Shown in pieces: positions 6,667-14,443 of a stretch of 64,000 nt of DNA. Source of the DNA: Bremerella sp. P1. Lineage in GTDB: Bacteria; Planctomycetota; Planctomycetia; Pirellulales; Pirellulaceae. The first letter of the stretch is position 1, and every line of letters starts with the position of its first letter. The stretch is taken from contig NZ_CP118164.1 in assembly GCF_028748185.1 (NCBI RefSeq), forward strand, positions 2,728,001-2,792,000. The letters run 5' to 3'. A program made the position numbers and the translations under genes. The notes below the pieces were generated by a model, which saw only the letters and a program-made list of their open reading frames with translations, did not search any database and was not told the DNA's origin.

Positions 6667-8655
6667 TTATTTCTGATCCAGCATCCAGACAGGATGTTCT
6701 TTGCCGACCAGCTTCGGATTCTGAAGGAGCATCAGAGCTCGATCGCGAAGGCACTTGGTGGGCCCGTCGGATTGGCATTCCTCGACTTTGGAGATCCCGT
6801 CCAGCGTGTTGAGTGCTTCCAGGAAATTGCGTTCTTCGAACTGACGATAGGCTGCTTCGTAGTTCTGCCGCAATTGAGTCCAGCTGCCGGAAGCTCTGGC
6901 AGAGAGTTCATAGACCCGAACGGGATCGGGGATGTTGACGACTTTGATCGTTCCGAGGAAACGCGTCGGCATGTTCGTCGTTACGCCCAAACGAGTCGAT
7001 TCGGTGATCAAGATCTCAGGCGGGTAATAGAGTGTTCCCGCTTCGTCGCGTTCCTGTTTGGGGCAGAACTGCTTCGTGGCTCCCTGGATTCGGCTGGCGA
7101 TGTTCACCGTTGGGCCGAGCGGTCCCCACATGTACTTGTAGTCGGTTCCCTTCTTCCCTACGACGCAGTCGCCGGTATTGATCCCGATGGTCAAACCAAA
7201 CGGCAGAAGCTCGTCCGGGATGCGATCGGACCACAATTGATTCAACTGATCGAGCTTGCCGATCATGTCGATCGCTGCCTGACAGGCCAGGTTGGGGTGT
7301 TCTGGTTGATGGTCGGGGGCACCCCACATCGCGACTAATTCGTCGCCGACATATTCCAGCAGAACCCCATCGTGACGAATCACACTTTCGGAGAGTTCTC
7401 CCAGGACTTCTCGTAACCACTGCAGGGTTTGCACCGAGCCTAACGCAGAACTGATCGTGCTGAAACCGCGAATGTCACAGAAGAGAACGGTTATATTCTC
7501 TTCGCGCGTTTCCAGGAGGGTCTCGTCGTAGAGAATACGATCGGCGATGCCCGGCGGGAAAAACTGAGCGAGGCAAACCTGTTGCTTGGCGGCCTCTTGT
7601 TCCTTCTTAAGTCGCTCGAGCCCGACGGTGAGGCAGTCGCGAATGACTTCGACGAACTTGACTTCACAATCGGCCATGATGTCGTCGCCAAGTTGGCCCG
7701 GCCGTTTCGATGCGTAGAGAGCACCGACGACACTCTCATGCGAAACCACCGGGGTCACCACGACGCGCTCTTGGGGATGTTCTTCCCCTTCGCCAGCTGG
7801 TGTCGACCACGTTTGTCGATTGGACCAGATGTACTCCAAAGCCTGGCTGTCGAAGACAGGACCTTCTATCTCAGCCGAGTCAGTTGCCGGCCAGGTCGCT
7901 TCGCATTGCCATTGATTGGCGAGTTGATCGAGTCCCAGGTACGAGCACGAGTCGAAATTGCCGAGCTTGCAGACATTCTCAGCGGCCGACGAGAAGAAAT
8001 CGGGAGAGCTGGCTGCCTTTTCGAGCACGTCACTTACTGCACCCAAGATACGTTCGACATCGGCGCTGGACGGACCACTGGGCGTTGCGTAGCCATCTTC
8101 CAAGCGACTTTGTCGTATCATCATCGCCACGTCGGCCACGCTTTGCGAGATGTTCGTCGGGCTGTGTTCGGAATAGTTATGCTCGACGGGTGCGCCGTGA
8201 CCGCTCAGTTGAATGGCTAAGTGGTCCCCGATCATCAGGCGAACAGGATTTTGGACCAGCTCACTGGTCACGAAAGTGCGGACTTGTTGATGGGCGATAC
8301 GACCTTCCGAAGAAGGAGACATGGGAACTTCGTGATTGCCAATGTTCCCCACGCGGAGATAGTTGCCGGCCGCATCCGGGGCGATTTCGAGTGAGCGCCG
8401 CGAAATCTCACGCTGTTGGAACGACGTAATGATCAGCTTGCGATGGTCTGTGAACGTAATCGTTCGGAATGGGCCTGGGTCGCCTTTGGCAACATCTTGC
8501 CGACCAAGAATGATCCGCTGCTGGAGACCTAACTCGAAGACCTCTTGCCCCAACTGATCGTCATAGATCGGTTGCTGTTGACCATCGACGAAGATGCTCA
8601 GCGAGACGCCGGCAGGGCCTTGCGGTTCGTGTGGTCGGGGGTGAGGGTTATGCAT
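6667..8655 (-). CDS. Class III nucleotide cyclase with FHA-like and GAF domains
   Basis: Signal-transducing cyclase (662 residues), soluble. Residues about 15-150 resemble an FHA phosphothreonine-binding domain (ILGRQD near 50, SRRSLEI near 85). About 195-345 look like a GAF domain, and about 385-575 are the class III catalytic domain. Metal-binding aspartates are Asp394 (LFCDIRGF) and Asp438 (EYVGDELVAMWG); transition-state residues are Asn518 and Arg522 (TVNIASR). The residue that selects adenine, normally Lys before YxGD, is Glu434, and the usual Asp/Thr is Gly511. As I recall, the Synechocystis guanylyl cyclase Cya2 has this Glu/Gly pair, so the product may be cGMP. The C-terminal 90 residues are unassigned. 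Adenylyl activity cannot be excluded. Confidence 0.88.
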   Translation of the reverse strand: MHNPHPRPHEPQGPAGVSLSIFVDGQQQPIYDDQLGQEVFELGLQQRIILGRQDVAKGDPGPFRTITFTDHRKLIITSFQQREISRRSLEIAPDAAGNYLRVGNIGNHEVPMSPSSEGRIAHQQVRTFVTSELVQNPVRLMIGDHLAIQLSGHGAPVEHNYSEHSPTNISQSVADVAMMIRQSRLEDGYATPSGPSSADVERILGAVSDVLEKAASSPDFFSSAAENVCKLGNFDSCSYLGLDQLANQWQCEATWPATDSAEIEGPVFDSQALEYIWSNRQTWSTPAGEGEEHPQERVVVTPVVSHESVVGALYASKRPGQLGDDIMADCEVKFVEVIRDCLTVGLERLKKEQEAAKQQVCLAQFFPPGIADRILYDETLLETREENITVLFCDIRGFSTISSALGSVQTLQWLREVLGELSESVIRHDGVLLEYVGDELVAMWGAPDHQPEHPNLACQAAIDMIGKLDQLNQLWSDRIPDELLPFGLTIGINTGDCVVGKKGTDYKYMWGPLGPTVNIASRIQGATKQFCPKQERDEAGTLYYPPEILITESTRLGVTTNMPTRFLGTIKVVNIPDPVRVYELSARASGSWTQLRQNYEAAYRQFEERNFLEALNTLDGISKVEECQSDGPTKCLRDRALMLLQNPKLVGKEHPVWMLDQK

Positions 8656-8960
8656 TGCTGGCAGACGAAACGGTTCAAAATGTCATTCAATGGATCCGCC
8701 ACTAATCATTATTCTTCGGCCTCGGTCCGTTCTAAAGCCTCAATCTTTCCATTTTATCGACGGATATCTTGCCCAAGTTTCTTAAGAATAACTGAAAGAA
8801 TCCCAGAATTCCAACATGGAATTGGGGTTATACCACTTCGCTAAGCCGCGGTTGCCCCGCCCCCCGTCAGTGATTTTCGTTGGTGACGACCCAATAACGC
8901 GATAGAATGGCATTGAGCTTTCCATCGCACCGAAGACGCCACATTAAAGCAGCATGTGCC
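8656..8960. other. Divergent intergenic region, cyclase / DUF1444 gene
   Basis: About 305 bases separating the divergently transcribed cyclase (minus) and DUF1444 (plus) genes. It must hold both promoters. I see no strong inverted repeat, riboswitch-like structure or small gene. An in-frame ATG at 8907 would extend the DUF1444 protein by 18 residues, but that stretch is arginine/histidine-rich and does not look conserved. Confidence 0.5.
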
Positions 8961-10184
8961 ATGGATTTACTACGGTACCTATTCGGTTCGTCCAAGCGTG
9001 ACCAATTCGCCGAGCGCCTGATGCATCGCGTCAAGCAAGCCGGGGAGAATCGCGAGATCCGCTACGAAAAGCAGGCGTACCAGTTTAGTTTCTTTGACCA
9101 GGGGGAACTGGCTGGCGTTGCCAATCTGGGCAACATCTTTCGGGAATACGACCGTCTTCCTGAGAACGAACAAGAAGCCTATCTAGGTCAAATTACCCGA
9201 GCCATTCTCTCGCATCACAAGTCGATTCCGGAAGAATTCGAGGACGCCCGGCCTGATATTTTGCCGATCGTTCGCAGTCGAGCGTACCTGGAAATTGGCA
9301 ATCTAGAACGCCGTCTTCGCGGCGAACAACCAGCGGAATTCACCTCGACGATAGTAGGCGATCATTTGCTCGCTTTACCGATCTTCGATTTGCCTGAGGC
9401 GATGCGAACAATCGACGCCGACAGGATGAATCAATGGGGTCGATCGATTTATGAGCTTATGGAAGTCGCCCTGGAAAACCTCGATGAGATGGTCGCGGCG
9501 GTGACCGCGATCAACGATCGAGTTTTCCTCTTCCGCAACCAGGATCATTACGATGCCTCGCGGCTATTGCTAACTGACCGTATTCGTCAGCTCGACGTAC
9601 AAGGCCTGCCGGTCGCGATGGTGCCGACCCGTGATTGTTTGATTGTCACGGGGGATGAAGATGAGATCGGACTGCAATTGATGCATGAACTTGTAGGCCA
9701 ATATATCCACGACCCGCGCCCTATCAGCCTGACTCCATGTCGGTTGACGGACGAGGGTTGGGAGACATGGCTGCCCCCTTTTGGGCATCCCCAGCATGAT
9801 GCATTTTGTGAACTGCACCTGCAGGGTCATGCAGCTGAATATCGCGAGCAACACGAAGCCATTGAGGTCGGCTTTGCTCAAACAGGACAAGAAGGTTTCG
9901 TAGCGAACTATTATCTGCACCGTGATTTGAAGACTCGACAGCTTCATTCGTATTGTGTTTGGCCCGAGTGCCCGCACGCGCTGCTGCCGAAGAGTGATGT
10001 CGTTGTTTTCATGGATAGTTCGCACATGAAACCGTTGGCAAGTGGAACATGGGAAGTGGTTCAAGCGGGACTGGGATCTCAGATGGAGGACCTGAAAACG
10101 TATCCACCACGTTATCGGGTGCTTGGATTTCCCAGTGAGGAAGCGCTACGGAAAATCGGTTCAATTCCTCGTTTTCGCCTATGA
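8961..10184 (+). CDS. DUF1444 (YtpQ-like) family protein
   Basis: Cytoplasmic protein of 407 residues from the ATG at 8961 (MDLLRYLFGSSKRDQF). The middle matches the pattern of the DUF1444/YtpQ family: DILPIVRSRAYLE near residue 105, then GDHLLALPIFDLPEAMRTI, ending in LPVAMVPTRDCLIVTG near 235. These proteins have no established function; some analyses describe a nuclease-like or toxin-immunity-like fold, which I cannot verify here. A C-terminal region of about 120 residues adds a module not usual for YtpQ. It precedes the stressosome operon by 155 bases on the same strand, so read-through is possible but the gap argues for a separate promoter. Confidence 0.72.
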   Translation: MDLLRYLFGSSKRDQFAERLMHRVKQAGENREIRYEKQAYQFSFFDQGELAGVANLGNIFREYDRLPENEQEAYLGQITRAILSHHKSIPEEFEDARPDILPIVRSRAYLEIGNLERRLRGEQPAEFTSTIVGDHLLALPIFDLPEAMRTIDADRMNQWGRSIYELMEVALENLDEMVAAVTAINDRVFLFRNQDHYDASRLLLTDRIRQLDVQGLPVAMVPTRDCLIVTGDEDEIGLQLMHELVGQYIHDPRPISLTPCRLTDEGWETWLPPFGHPQHDAFCELHLQGHAAEYREQHEAIEVGFAQTGQEGFVANYYLHRDLKTRQLHSYCVWPECPHALLPKSDVVVFMDSSHMKPLASGTWEVVQAGLGSQMEDLKTYPPRYRVLGFPSEEALRKIGSIPRFRL

Positions 10185-10339: not shown

Positions 10340-11251
10340 ATGAATTCGCACTGTGATCTCGGAAATTTGTCGGCTGGGGAGCTTCGAGAACTCTATCACG
10401 TTACGGAAGAGGATCTCGAATTGATCGTCGAATACGGCAAGATTGTAATGCCGCGTTTGGACACATTCATCAGTGAGTTCTACGAATGGTTAAGGACGCA
10501 ACCAGAGTTTGATCTTTACTTCACTGACAACGCAACACTGCATCGGGTGCAGTCCCAACAGAAGCGATACTGGGAAGATTTTTATTCCGCTGACATCAGT
10601 GAGGTTTACGTTCAAAAACGAAAGTCGGTCGGTGCGAATCATGCGCGGATAGGTCTGCCGCTGCCAACCTATGTCTCGTCGATGTATCGCTCGCTGAGAA
10701 TTTGGACAGACGTCCTTTATGACCACCGCCTGGAACCGGAACGCTATGCCCGTTCGCTCAAGGCGGTGACCAAGTTGATCATGTTGGACACGGCAATTGT
10801 GGTCGATACTTTTATGCGGCAAACCAATTGCATCATTGCCGAGCAGCATGATTCGTTGATGCAGATGTCGACTCCGGTAACGGAAGTCTGGAACGACATC
10901 TTAATGTTGCCGATCGTCGGCATCATCGATTCCAAGCGCGCCCAAGACATCATGACGGCCGTGTTGCACAAGATTGCCGACACGCATTCGCGCTGTCTCA
11001 TTCTCGATATTAGCGGTGTTGCGGTGGTCGATACGGCCGTGGCAAATCACTTGATTAAAATCACCAAAGCAACTCGCCTGATGGGCTGCACCTGCACGAT
11101 CTCAGGCGTTTCGCCGGCAATCGCCCAGACGATTGTGGAACTTGGCATCAATGTAGGAGACATACGAACAACAGCAACACTTAAGGACGCCCTGCGGGAT
11201 GCGTTCAATGATTTGAAACTGGTATTACACGAAGACGGAACTTCTCCATGA
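10340..11251 (+). CDS. rsbR: RsbR-type stressosome scaffold with globin sensor domain
   Basis: Stressosome core protein of 303 residues. Residues about 10-165 form a globin-coupled-sensor domain; the proximal haem ligand is His101 in VGANHARIGLPLPTY, which fits the family's GxxHxxIGL pattern. Residues about 180-295 form the STAS domain. Both threonines phosphorylated in Bacillus RsbRA are kept: Thr232 in DISGVAVVDT and Thr264 in PAIAQTIVELG. A haem globin suggests oxygen, nitric oxide or redox sensing, as in the described Vibrio globin-RsbR (family knowledge). It is the first gene of a five-gene unit, and its last four bases (ATGA) overlap rsbS. Confidence 0.92.
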   Translation: MNSHCDLGNLSAGELRELYHVTEEDLELIVEYGKIVMPRLDTFISEFYEWLRTQPEFDLYFTDNATLHRVQSQQKRYWEDFYSADISEVYVQKRKSVGANHARIGLPLPTYVSSMYRSLRIWTDVLYDHRLEPERYARSLKAVTKLIMLDTAIVVDTFMRQTNCIIAEQHDSLMQMSTPVTEVWNDILMLPIVGIIDSKRAQDIMTAVLHKIADTHSRCLILDISGVAVVDTAVANHLIKITKATRLMGCTCTISGVSPAIAQTIVELGINVGDIRTTATLKDALRDAFNDLKLVLHEDGTSP

Positions 11252-11652
11252 TTCACGATTCCGCGGAAGTACCGCGCATCCCCATGCAACTCGCCAGCGG
11301 TTGCCTGGTAGCGTCGATCCAAATCGATTTGAACGACGAGGTTTTGTTCCGCTTCAAAAGAGACCTTTTGGAAGAGATACGCCTGACACAAACACGGGCC
11401 GTATTACTCGATGTGTCGGGCGTGGACATTATGGACCGAATCGAGTTCGAGGCGATCTGCGAGATCATGCGGATGTCTCGATTAATGGGAGCACGTTCTA
11501 TGCTTGTTGGCGTGAAACCTGAGATCGCTTGTTCGCTGATGGACTTCGATCTGGATTTCACCCAGATGGAAACGGCCCTGACGCTCGATTTGGCGTTTGA
11601 GAAACTGCATGCAAATGGGCACAGTAACGGAGGCCGCCACGAGTCAATGTGA
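11248..11652 (+). CDS. rsbS: RsbS-type STAS protein with altered phospho-site
   Basis: Single STAS domain protein (134 residues) that forms the stressosome core with RsbR and normally holds RsbT until phosphorylated. It aligns with Bacillus RsbS along its length (for example MSRLMGARSMLVGVKPEIA against MSKLMGAKVVLTGIQPAVA). The phosphorylated serine of Bacillus RsbS (Ser59, in DMIDSF) is replaced by arginine here (Arg64, in DIMDRI). Ser96 (IACSLMDF) occupies the second STAS phospho-position, matching Thr264 of the neighbouring RsbR. It overlaps rsbR by four bases and rsbT by one to four. Confidence 0.88.
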   Translation: MIHDSAEVPRIPMQLASGCLVASIQIDLNDEVLFRFKRDLLEEIRLTQTRAVLLDVSGVDIMDRIEFEAICEIMRMSRLMGARSMLVGVKPEIACSLMDFDLDFTQMETALTLDLAFEKLHANGHSNGGRHESM

Positions 11653-12053
11653 TGAACCTGCCGGAGATGCGGATATGGATCAGTACGGAAGCCAATTTAG
11701 CTCGTTCAATCGTGGCTTCTCGCAAAATGGCTGAATCGGCCGGACTTCAGGCAAACCAGGTGGCATTGGTCGCAACGGCCGTATCGGAACTCGCCCGCAA
11801 TATCATCAAGTACGCTCACCACGGCGAAGTGATCCTTCGCTATATCACTCACGGACCGAAACAGGGAATCGAGGTAGTCGCCTGGGACCATGGTCCCGGG
11901 ATTGAATGTGTTGAATCGGCAATGAGCGATCATCACAGCACCGGCGGAACACTGGGACTGGGACTTCCCGGCGTTAAGCGTCTCATGGACGAATTCGAAC
12001 TAGAATCCGAACTCGGCAAGGGAACCAGGATTACGGTGAGGAAATGGAAGTAA
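11652..12053 (+). CDS. rsbT: RsbT-type serine/threonine switch kinase
   Basis: GHKL-fold kinase of 133 residues that phosphorylates the STAS domains of RsbR and RsbS and, once released, activates a phosphatase. The N box is SELARNIIKYA, with the magnesium-binding Asn at about residue 50. The G1 box is DHGPGI near 80 and the G2 region GGTLGLGLPG near 100. All ATP-binding motifs look intact. The start is the ATG at 11652, which shares its A with the rsbS stop (TGATG); an in-frame GTG at 11649 is the alternative. The overlap indicates translational coupling. Its usual acceptor serine in RsbS is missing (see rsbS). Confidence 0.92.
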   Translation: MNLPEMRIWISTEANLARSIVASRKMAESAGLQANQVALVATAVSELARNIIKYAHHGEVILRYITHGPKQGIEVVAWDHGPGIECVESAMSDHHSTGGTLGLGLPGVKRLMDEFELESELGKGTRITVRKWK

Positions 12054-12643
12054 TGACGCCTCGCAAATTGGAAACCGGCAGCTTCGTCCGAACGGCTGCC
12101 GGGCACTTCGTTGGCGGCGATCTCGCGATTGTCCGGCCGGACGAAGACTATTTATTCCTCGCACTCGTGGATGTTCTGGGGCATGGGCCGCAGGCATACT
12201 CCACAGCGTTGGAATTGGAAGAAGCCATCTTAGGTTGGGATGACACATTTGACATTCTGGCCCTCATGAAGGCACTGCACGTTCATCAAAAGCATGGTCG
12301 TGGTGCCGTCATCAGTCTCTGCACGATCGAGTCACTTACCGGAGAGGTGCGCTACGTCGGTATCGGAAACGCGACCTGTCGCACGATGGGTCTGCATCCG
12401 CACCACATGCTTACCCGCGAAGGAGTGGTCGGTCACACGTTGCGAACGCCTTCGATCGAACGAATGACTCTCGATCAACATGACATCCTGCTGCTTTATA
12501 GTGATGGGGTTTCGAGCCATTTCGAGGTGCAAGAACCCTGTCAGCTCTTTTTCGAGCCGCTGGATAATGTTGCCCGCCGGGTCGTTGAGCAGTTTGGTCG
12601 AGGGCATGATGATGCCTCCTGCATCGCGGTGAGGTACGCATGA
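12044..12643 (+). CDS. rsbX: RsbX-type PP2C/SpoIIE phosphatase
   Basis: Small SpoIIE/PP2C-like phosphatase (199 residues, catalytic domain only), as expected for RsbX, which resets the stressosome by dephosphorylating RsbR and RsbS. Metal-binding aspartates: Asp26 in FVGGDLAIV, Asp43 in ALVDVLGHGPQA, then LLYSDGVSSHF near 150 and GHDDASCIAVRY at the C terminus. Two starts are possible: ATG at 12044, overlapping rsbT by ten bases, or ATG at 12053, which shares the final A of the rsbT stop; both are in frame. It overlaps rsbU by ATGA. Confidence 0.86.
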   Translation: MEVMTPRKLETGSFVRTAAGHFVGGDLAIVRPDEDYLFLALVDVLGHGPQAYSTALELEEAILGWDDTFDILALMKALHVHQKHGRGAVISLCTIESLTGEVRYVGIGNATCRTMGLHPHHMLTREGVVGHTLRTPSIERMTLDQHDILLLYSDGVSSHFEVQEPCQLFFEPLDNVARRVVEQFGRGHDDASCIAVRYA

Positions 12644-13941
12644 GGACTCACCTGGGCGACATTCGTATTTTCGACCAGTCGGCGGTCGTGGAGGTCCGCA
12701 CGAAAGTACTGAGCCTGAGCGCCGCATTTGGCTTTGGTTCCGCGATGTCGACTCGGATGGCCACGATCCTTTCGGACCTGGTTCGGCAACTACTCAAGAA
12801 TTCCGAACCTGGTTCGATGTTTGTTGATCTCGAAGACCGACAAGGACAACTCATTCTGGGGTTACGGTTTCTCACGTCAGAAACCATTCAGATCTCGCCT
12901 GCTCTGCTGGATGTTTTTGATGATGTTCGACAGCTATCCAATGGAGAGGCAGTCCGGGAAATCACGTTGCGGAAAATGGTTCGCAACATGCCGGGCTCTC
13001 TAACGCCGGAGTTCCTTGATTTTCAGCGAGATCGCATCAGTTTGAAATCGCGCGTGGCATTGGTCGAAGAACTGCGAGAGAAAAACCAGCAGCTCGAACG
13101 ATACAATGCTCACCTCGAGGACCTCGTTCGTGAACGTACCAAGGAACTTGAACTTACCAACCAGCGCATGCAGCGTGATTTGGATGCCGGCGCCGAGTAC
13201 GTTGCGCGGTTGATTCCCGAACCCATTTCGGGGCAGATCTCGATTGATTGGCGTTATGTCCCTTCCGAAGAGCTTGGTGGGGATGCGATGGGTTACCATT
13301 GGATCGACCCCGATCATATGGCGATCTATTTGCTCGACGTCACTGGGCACGGAATCGACTCGGCTCTGTTGGCTGTCAGCATCATCAACGTGGTGCGTGG
13401 AGCTTCCTTGCCCGGTGCCGATTTCCGTAATCCGAGCGAAGTGCTGAAACGGCTGAACCAGTCGTTCACGATGGATATGCACGGCAACAAGCTTTACACC
13501 ATGTGGTACGGTGTATTTCACCGGCCTTCGCGAACACTGACCTGGAGTGGGGGAGGACATCCCGATGCCTTGCTCTACGTGAAAGATTCACGCGAGCCGA
13601 TCCGGCTTGCGTCCCAAGGGCCCCTTATGGGCATGATCGATTGGCCTCATTTCGATACCGATTCGATCGTCATCGAATCGCCATCCAGCTTGTTTCTCTA
13701 CAGCGACGGTGTATTTGAGATTCACAAAGAGGACGGAAATGAGTGGACGTTTGATGAGTTCGTCGACTACATGAATCTGCCGGTGCCCAAGGGAGATACT
13801 AAGATGGACGATCTTTACCGTTACGTCCGTGAACTATGCGGCTGCGAGCATCTGGGTGACGACTTCTCGATTCTCGAGATTTGCTTCGATCTGCTCGAGG
13901 ATCCCGTAGGTGAAGTGCACGGGATTGGGGAAGCTATTTAG
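12640..13941 (+). CDS. rsbU: RsbU-like SpoIIE phosphatase with degenerate RsbT-like domain
   Basis: Last gene of the stressosome operon (433 residues). Residues about 5-125 resemble a GHKL ATPase of the RsbT/RsbW type but look degenerate: the N-box pattern SELARN reads SDLVRQ (Gln50 for Asn) and no DxGxG box is seen. Residues about 135-190 form a coiled coil (LREKNQQLERYN, LVRERTKELELT). The SpoIIE phosphatase domain follows (about 195-420), with EELGGDAMGY, LLDVTGHGIDSALLA, FLYSDGVFE and the acidic GDDFSILEI end. Bacillus RsbU instead has a helical RsbT-binding domain. It probably acts downstream of RsbT on an anti-sigma antagonist that is not in this window. It overlaps the convergent CYTH gene by eight bases. 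Confidence 0.85.
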   Translation: MRTHLGDIRIFDQSAVVEVRTKVLSLSAAFGFGSAMSTRMATILSDLVRQLLKNSEPGSMFVDLEDRQGQLILGLRFLTSETIQISPALLDVFDDVRQLSNGEAVREITLRKMVRNMPGSLTPEFLDFQRDRISLKSRVALVEELREKNQQLERYNAHLEDLVRERTKELELTNQRMQRDLDAGAEYVARLIPEPISGQISIDWRYVPSEELGGDAMGYHWIDPDHMAIYLLDVTGHGIDSALLAVSIINVVRGASLPGADFRNPSEVLKRLNQSFTMDMHGNKLYTMWYGVFHRPSRTLTWSGGGHPDALLYVKDSREPIRLASQGPLMGMIDWPHFDTDSIVIESPSSLFLYSDGVFEIHKEDGNEWTFDEFVDYMNLPVPKGDTKMDDLYRYVRELCGCEHLGDDFSILEICFDLLEDPVGEVHGIGEAI

Positions 13942-14443
13942 TTAAGTGGTCGAGGTAAGCTCCCTCGACGAGATCCTCGCTTTGGATACCAAGCTTTTGC
14001 ATTAGTTGATGAGCAATTGATTCACCCTCGGCCTCCGTCTGAGACGGCTCTAGCACGACTTCCAATTCCAGGTAGCTGCCTAGGTCCTGGACTTCGTCCA
14101 GGTGAATGCGAGTCTGTCCGACCAGGTAAAGCGTTCGTGTCTTGGTGACGATGCCCAGGGGCTCCAGCGCCAAGGTCAGCAATTGTGCGAGCTGCTCCGG
14201 GTGAACGATGGGAACCCGAGAATAGTCGGAAGTCTTGGGGCCTGCCGAGTCCGAGCGACGATAGAAAATCAACTCGGCGTGTTCACCATTGATCTGGCGC
14301 AGCTTCAACCGCCCCTCAGGCACACGATAGAACTGATCGATCTGCTTGAGAACGATCGGACCAGAGTCCGCGATCGGAACAATACGATCTTCGAGTTCCG
14401 ATCGATGGGTAAGTCGGGCCTTGATTTCTATATTGCGAGCCAC
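13934..14443 (-). CDS. CYTH domain protein (class IV cyclase/thiamine triphosphatase fold)
   Basis: CYTH-fold protein of 169 residues. The N-terminal strand carries the EIKAR variant of the ExExK signature (Glu6, Lys8). Basic and acidic tunnel residues appear as GRLKLRQI near 45, IFYRRSD near 60, TRTLYLV near 103 and DLGSYLELEVVLE near 122. The family binds triphosphates with divalent metal; members include CyaB class IV adenylyl cyclases, thiamine triphosphatases and polyphosphatases, and the sequence here does not decide between them. The start is GTG at 14443, 15 bases after lysA ends, so it is probably co-transcribed with lysA. Confidence 0.85.
   Translation of the reverse strand: MARNIEIKARLTHRSELEDRIVPIADSGPIVLKQIDQFYRVPEGRLKLRQINGEHAELIFYRRSDSAGPKTSDYSRVPIVHPEQLAQLLTLALEPLGIVTKTRTLYLVGQTRIHLDEVQDLGSYLELEVVLEPSQTEAEGESIAHQLMQKLGIQSEDLVEGAYLDHLTK

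Follow-up and report, generated by a model that had tools for sequence, protein, structure and literature searches.

The haem-globin stressosomes described from Vibrio (Jia 2016, PMC4976288; Heinz 2022, PMC9237108) are encoded by genes for RsbR, RsbS, RsbT and RsbX (RSTX), followed by an output gene. As far as the available text of these papers goes, they have: an RsbR with a haem-type globin; no SigB; and an RsbS whose phosphorylation site is not conserved, a point made by Jia 2016 for V. brasiliensis. The RsbR of V. brasiliensis, from the same clade as the RsbR discussed here, binds haem, and O2 acts through it to gate RsbT (PMC4976288). Eleven downstream architectures, with PP2C among the named outputs, are given in the accessible part of PMC9237108; most of these downstream proteins lack RsbU_N, the RsbT-binding N-terminal domain of RsbU, and the route to them is only suggested. 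Here, a five-gene locus of this type is analysed in a 64,000-nucleotide stretch of the planctomycete Bremerella sp. P1 (the window; 2728001-2792000 in a 6.96 Mb genome assembled as one contig and 99.7% complete). The profile, fold and comparative data suggest, at roughly even odds (about 0.5), a haem stressosome of the Vibrio type that has an output phosphatase of its own and in which RsbT freed from the core would pair with a pseudo-RsbT domain at the N-terminus of that phosphatase.

The locus consists of five overlapping open reading frames (ORFs), all on the forward strand: RsbR, with a haem-type globin at residues 14-161 and a STAS domain at residues 179-283 (10340..11251; Pfam Protoglobin 2.4e-32, STAS 2.9e-15); RsbS, a single STAS domain (11248..11652; STAS 1.6e-8); the switch kinase RsbT (11649..12053; HATPase_c_2 5.6e-14); an RsbX-like single-domain PP2C feedback phosphatase (12044..12643; SpoIIE 2e-8); and gene 5, a 433-residue output PP2C phosphatase with a pseudo-RsbT N-terminus (12640..13941; SpoIIE 2.1e-38, residues 224-416). 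Successive overlaps are 4, 4, 10 and 4 bases, the second falling to 1 base should the RsbT start be the ATG at 11652 rather than the GTG at 11649. The order of all five genes is identical in each of the six same-genus relatives fetched, so the arrangement is not due to chance. Coordinates and Pfam matches bear out the place, order and domains given in an earlier, sequence-only reading of this DNA, and the overlaps and conserved order support its view of one co-translated globin-stressosome system.

RsbR residues 12-294 of 303 match 7o0i_B (E 4.9e-105), which we take to be the RsbR of V. vulnificus. This assignment agrees with PMC9237108, and the match makes the haem-globin RSTX stressosomes of Jia 2016 and Heinz 2022 the closest described systems. 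Judged by its sequence, the locus is a five-gene haem-globin stressosome operon of known type, sharing with the Vibrio systems the R-S-T-X order before an output gene, the haem-type globin RsbR, the lack of SigB and the non-conserved RsbS site. It differs in its host, the word planctomycete being absent from the main text of PMC9237108, and in its output, which is a PP2C protein rather than the hybrid histidine kinase of Vibrio. With the Bacillus/Listeria RsbRST-UVW-SigB pathway the locus shares RsbR, RsbS, RsbT, RsbX, a PP2C protein and both RsbR threonines; it differs in having no Ser at the RsbS S59/S56 position, a haem-type globin, a PP2C protein without RsbU_N, an operon without RsbV, RsbW or SigB, and no SigB above cut-off in the genome.

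Gene 5 carries DVTGHG, SDG and GDD in its phosphatase domain (13309..13887, +; Pfam SpoIIE), which we take to be PP2C motifs. The motifs are intact. Gene 5 is the output module, where the sequence-only reading had seen no visible output, and PP2C outputs of this type have been listed before for operons of this kind (Heinz 2022, PMC9237108, available text). The label RsbU-like, also given to it then, suits the phosphatase domain, which is common to RsbU; it does not suit the N-terminal region, since Pfam gives no RsbU_N match in gene 5 or its relatives, whether in the 37 full-length carriers described below or in 22 further downstream proteins. Residues 1-190 reach no Pfam cut-off, with one weak and unrelated match (E 0.067, residues 90-167), and in a set of 40 N-domain sequences no Pfam family reaches E<=0.1 in two or more.

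Comparison by hhalign, AlphaFold2 (AF2) and Foldseek instead places a degenerate RsbT/RsbW-type domain without ATP-site residues in this region (12640..13041, +; residues 1-134). The N-domain profile aligns with an RsbT profile at 96.3% (E 1.6e-9, 72 columns); the control against RsbR gives 0.2%. The AF2 model of residues 1-150 (predicted local distance difference test, pLDDT, 90.5; predicted template modelling score, pTM, 0.83) finds 18 PDB matches at E<=1e-3 (best E 6.3e-6), all of them SpoIIAB, UsfX/anti-SigF or RsbW entries; 6m36_A, 1tid_A, 1th8_A and 1l0o_A are kinase chains by name, and the chains of 8ih8 and 8jzt were assigned at entry level, not by chain name. The Asn of the Mg-ATP N-box occurs in 0/40 N-domains and D.G[PV] in 1/40, as against 10/10 RsbTs for both. 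It is the N-terminal half of the domain that is conserved, and the ATP lid and G2 region are missing. Together, an RsbT-like profile and fold without the ATP-site residues mark the N-domain, by alignment and model, as a switch-kinase fold that lacks a catalytic site and is not a kinase. Between it and the phosphatase runs a helical linker beginning KSRxxLxEELREKNQQLER (13042..13308, +), modelled as helix to residue 148 and read from sequence thereafter; R138, L141, E144 and N149 are conserved in this region.

The overall plan of N-terminal regulatory domain, helical linker and PP2C domain is that of RsbU and the RssB-type phosphatases with a coiled-coil linker (PMC12143880, available text). 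RsbU_N is a four-helix bundle, whereas the gene 5 N-domain has a degenerate RsbT/RsbW-type alpha/beta fold. An RsbT-like domain before PP2C is also found in ATP-binding SpoIIE phosphatases (HATPase and PP2C fusions), which are annotated after RsbT in other stressosome operons. These fusions are the fourth gene, in the RsbX position, and the one read, at L092, keeps its ATP-site motifs; the fusion here is the fifth gene, and its RsbT-like domain is dead. No description of an RsbT-like N-terminus on the output was found in the available text of the two Vibrio papers, nor of the N-domain in the open PMC literature, a coverage that stops short of subscription papers, supplements and figures.

The distribution of the N-domain was followed through loci found by scanning named genomes with a cross-phylum RsbR alignment, of which the best 80 of 198 were used; a scan of genome contigs with a genus-only RsbR alignment gave nothing. 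A called gene lies downstream of RsbX in 63 of the 80 loci, and 17 have none. A genus-only N-domain profile matches 35/63 downstream genes in other loci at E<1e-3 (E scaled to 65 sequences), and a second-round profile built from these first-round matches finds 39/63 at E<1e-15, from 15 named phyla. Run against the 2,379 plus-strand ORFs of the 80 loci, the genus-only profile gives 25 matches among the 2,316 outside the called downstream genes: 22 are RsbT; the other three are large genes behind RsbX/RsbT (L121, L146, L161) missed by the gene caller.

In its carriers the N-domain comes directly after RsbX, and what follows it varies. The full-length carriers (gene 5 and 36 others, leaving out L141 and L144 at contig ends and the masked L174) match SpoIIE in 18/37, HisKA in 17/37 and a cyclase in 1/37; the 22 other downstream proteins (leaving out the short ORFs of L127 and L152, and L120, L121 and L146, where no gene was called) match HisKA in 17, cyclase in 3 and SpoIIE in 2. 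Alignment A5 leaves out L144, L168 and L174. In alignment A6, HATPase_c_2 is matched by 15/37 gene-5 relatives; in some of the PP2C-type relatives an RsbW-like kinase may be part of the same polypeptide. The N-termini of the D1-type hybrid kinases (12 sequences, Vibrio and Aeromonas) align with the N-domain at 99.3% (E 2.1e-20) and more weakly, at 76%, with RsbT. For a model of the Vibrio D1 N-domain, the first 13 fold matches are RsbW/SpoIIAB entries, weakly matched (best E 2.1e-3).

The N-domain also keeps close company with the globin. Among 392 Planctomycetota genomes, 12 have an N-domain match at E<=1e-5, and the six at E<1e-30 are the same six with a globin RsbR at E<1e-100. The remaining six matches are weak; frames were read at four of them (not L185 or L190), and those at L186, L187 and L189 carry intact RsbT-like motifs, while L188 has SEIART without the Asn. 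In 19 other genomes with such operons, 17 have an N-domain match at E<=1e-3. The ten best N-domain loci checked in these genomes all lie within the operon, a location checked for best matches only, the weaker ones including two extra in G788.

RsbS departs from the Bacillus scheme at its phosphorylation site. Neither this nor the unannotated N-terminal domain of gene 5 figured in the sequence-only reading. The position equivalent to B. subtilis S59 is Arg64 here (codon 11437-11439, +; alignment to RsbS 6jhk_A, E 8.3e-20), and seven same-genus sequences have Arg in five, Cys in one and Leu in one. RsbS was found behind RsbR in 79/80 loci, L135 ending at a contig edge, and 69/79 have neither Ser nor Thr at this position (Leu 22, Ala 13, Arg 10, Pro 6 and eleven further kinds of residue). 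The 79 are spread over 16 named phyla (two unassigned), and the 69 over 13 of these (one unassigned). On the RsbR tree there are 10 changes between Ser/Thr and other states, or at least 5 counting starred branches only, and the states are somewhat clustered (10 changes vs a shuffled mean of 13.2).

Control RsbS proteins beside RsbRs outside the clade keep the residue in 15/15 (Ser 12, Thr 3), after the Priestia record L204, which holds no RsbS, was dropped. Haem itself was considered as the cause of the loss and set aside: the RsbRs of G543 and G571 have the His, and the RsbS beside them (L091-L093) keep Ser/Thr, which ties the loss to the Vibrio-type clade rather than to haem as such. A substitute was sought across 88 RsbS, and no other column looks good, the best being position 57. 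By alignment, the canonical site of this RsbS offers no phosphorylatable residue. For V. brasiliensis, the available text of Jia 2016 (PMC4976288) already notes that the RsbS sites known from B. subtilis are not kept; what is new here is the breadth of the loss across phyla.

In B. subtilis, the S59A mutant retains 13, 33 or 63% of the response in different strains, and Gaidenko and Price (PMC3944199, available text) describe S59-independent signalling, with S59 phosphorylation possibly an evolutionary addition. In contrast, a Listeria preprint (PMC12154155, available text) has S56 phosphorylation releasing RsbT. The 69/79 RsbS without the canonical residue form a natural group in which the question of Gaidenko and Price becomes testable.

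The proposed mechanism joins these two features. Loss of O2 from the haem, a control inferred from the Vibrio work, would change RsbR, and RsbT would phosphorylate the STAS threonines of RsbR. RsbT would then leave the core without a switch on RsbS Ser59, by an RsbR-only or conformational switch. Next, freed RsbT would pair with the gene 5 pseudo-RsbT domain, which would take the place of the Bacillus RsbU_N; the N-domain may in this way be an adaptor between RsbT and the output. Pairing would order the linker, dimerise the PP2C domain and activate it, as RsbT does for RsbU, where linker-mediated PP2C dimerisation is driven by RsbT (PMC12143880, available text). The active phosphatase would dephosphorylate an RsbV-like STAS protein encoded elsewhere, and RsbX would reset RsbR. 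The shared pseudo-RsbT domain, Vibrio D1 included, is a concrete candidate for how outputs without RsbU_N are reached, and a dead-kinase domain may be the means by which the sensor complex is linked to varied outputs in many phyla. A wider version is offered more tentatively, as somewhat doubtful at present: that Vibrio-type haem stressosomes in at least 12 phyla dispense with canonical RsbS phosphorylation and carry, at the N-terminus of each output (PP2C, histidine kinase or nucleotide cyclase), a plug-in adaptor, an inactive copy of their switch kinase, for released RsbT to pair with.

As for the target, the sequence-only reading had found no RsbV, RsbW or SigB gene, and at E<=1e-3 SigBFG indeed has no match in the window, HATPase_c_2 matches only RsbT there, and STAS only RsbR and RsbS. 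It had also placed the output elsewhere and proposed a genome search for RsbV/RsbW/sigma-B homologues. That search gives a candidate pair on the same chromosome, an RsbV-like STAS gene (FLSSSALGKL; 4406201-4406509) and then an RsbW-like HATPase (4406201-4407102 overall), and no SigB/F/G: TIGR02980 (SigBFG) has 21 matches in the complete genome, none above the curated cut-off. SpoIIE has six matches in the genome, two of them the operon genes. The 4.406 Mb pair cannot be regarded as dedicated to the operon: its RsbV is present in 51/60 sampled family genomes, whereas RsbS is found in only one of the sampled family genomes outside the genus (G216). With an RsbV that occurs family-wide, the pair is a plausible but non-specific candidate output. 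Support for an RsbV-type target comes from other lineages, where in 9/63 loci the next gene after the downstream gene encodes an RsbV-like STAS protein with an SS(S/A)GLR motif, as it likewise does in F. kamogawensis. Tandem STAS proteins with FMSSIGV and FVSSIGI, possibly of the anti-anti-sigma type, are encoded shortly beyond the end of the window, some 52 kb away from the operon (L064 3187-3633 and 3687-4148, -; chromosome about 2793.2-2794.1 kb).

Several observations weigh against the proposed mechanism. The strongest is that an attempt to show interaction of VvRsbT with VvD1 failed (Heinz 2022, PMC9237108); in the available text of that paper, two-hybrid tests of VvRsbT against either RsbR or RsbS on its own likewise yielded no reproducible signal. 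A low thiophosphorylation of V. brasiliensis RsbS, with the site not assigned in the text available (Jia 2016, PMC4976288), means that another RsbS residue may be used. Ser/Thr is retained at the canonical site in 10/79 relatives (Ser 8, Thr 2), and as Ser in G662, which lies inside the clade, in the same phylum and another family, and has the nearest RsbR outside the genus (97% support by Shimodaira-Hasegawa-like approximate likelihood ratio test, SH-aLRT, in a quick tree of 93 RsbRs). The Vibrio D1 N-domain model has no PDB match at E<=1e-3, and L105 and L127, in two of the 19 genomes above, have the operon and no N-domain match. In G795, a same-genus genome 68% complete, gene 5 is present without RSTX at the locus. 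To these are added the family-wide RsbV just described and the RsbR Thr232, kept in 80/80 relatives in a count biased by a search pattern that held the residue.

The same evidence has to be read against other accounts of gene 5. The pseudo-RsbT domain could dock on the stressosome core in an RsbT-like position, tethering the output or competing with RsbT, with gene 5 maybe a second RsbR phosphatase. The natural partner of RsbT, to which the domain is homologous, is the RsbR:RsbS core, and docking would fit the failed VvRsbT-VvD1 interaction. Switch kinases hold STAS proteins by the face next to the ATP lid and G2 region, however, and precisely this part is missing, the conservation lying in the N-terminal half; a partner-switch target is suggested instead by the RsbV-like STAS genes that accompany PP2C in other lineages. 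We consider docking unlikely. That the domain is a dimerisation module only, with RsbT phosphorylating the output, seems more improbable still. Switch-kinase folds do dimerise. The account follows a proposal of Heinz 2022 and draws on the same undemonstrated VvRsbT-VvD1 interaction (PMC9237108, available text); a mere dimeriser, though, would have no need to be so tied to globin-stressosome operons, or to retain a recognisable similarity to the kinase encoded beside it.

The release step itself could be an ordinary Bacillus-type switch, with RsbS phosphorylated at another residue and the loss of Ser59 a detail. The low thiophosphorylation in V. brasiliensis (Jia 2016, PMC4976288, available text) would then be explained, and Ser or Thr is indeed common at RsbS position 57 (82/88) and position 23 (78/88). 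Ser57, however, looks structural, since it falls in a D-x-S/T motif common to RsbR (RsbR Ser225, 77/80), and the RsbS site equivalent to RsbR Thr264 is Ser or Thr in only 34/88. To this switch we attach little probability.

As the sequence-only reading had it, RsbR keeps the haem-ligand position His101 (codon 10640-10642, +) and the phospho-threonines Thr232 (11033-11035, +) and Thr264 (11129-11131, +). Among the 80 relatives, the proximal His101 is kept in 79, the remaining one having a gap; the distal Tyr48 in 77; and Thr264 in all 80. RsbR thus has a globin with the proximal His and distal Tyr typical of haem sensors, and the operon signal is probably oxygen. A further protein, roughly 580-641 residues long and weakly matching RsbR, is encoded directly upstream of RsbR in nine loci (L102, L127, L128, L132, L134, L135, L140, L141, L160); it is perhaps an additional sensor of the same stressosome.

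The ATP-site motifs of RsbT are intact (SELARN, DHGPG, GLGLPG). A strict test for the RsbT motifs picks out 56/76 RsbTs, the misses not being interpreted. RsbX carries LGHG, SDG and DD, presumably PP2C motifs. At L132, L133, L139, L140, L141, L142, L144, L174 and L175 the RsbX-matching ORFs are 356-445 residues long and no separate RsbT ORF is listed; these are probable RsbT-RsbX gene fusions.

Within the order, RsbS matches occur in 12/396 sampled genomes: 7/8 of the same genus, the window included, and five others. A search across nine genomes of the genus finds the operon in seven, with conserved surroundings. G097 has none of the five operon genes beside its DUF1444 gene, and in both G795 and G097 the best RsbT-profile matches are partial and in other long frames. 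At the G795 locus (L219 6319-7635, -), none of RsbR, RsbS, RsbT and RsbX accompanies gene 5, which is flanked by DUF1444 and CYTH-like genes; the sensor may have been lost here by natural deletion, with the output left behind.

In the window, the operon is flanked by a GAF and class III cyclase protein (6667-8655, -), whose N-terminus we take to be FHA-like, a DUF1444 protein (8907-10184, +) and a presumably CYTH-like protein (13934-14443, -). The GAF-cyclase and CYTH-like genes were considered as outputs and rejected: they are conserved neighbours, yet on the opposite strand. LysR, cyclase and DUF1444 genes lie by the operon in 6/6 same-genus loci checked, and the CYTH-like gene and lysA in 5/6.

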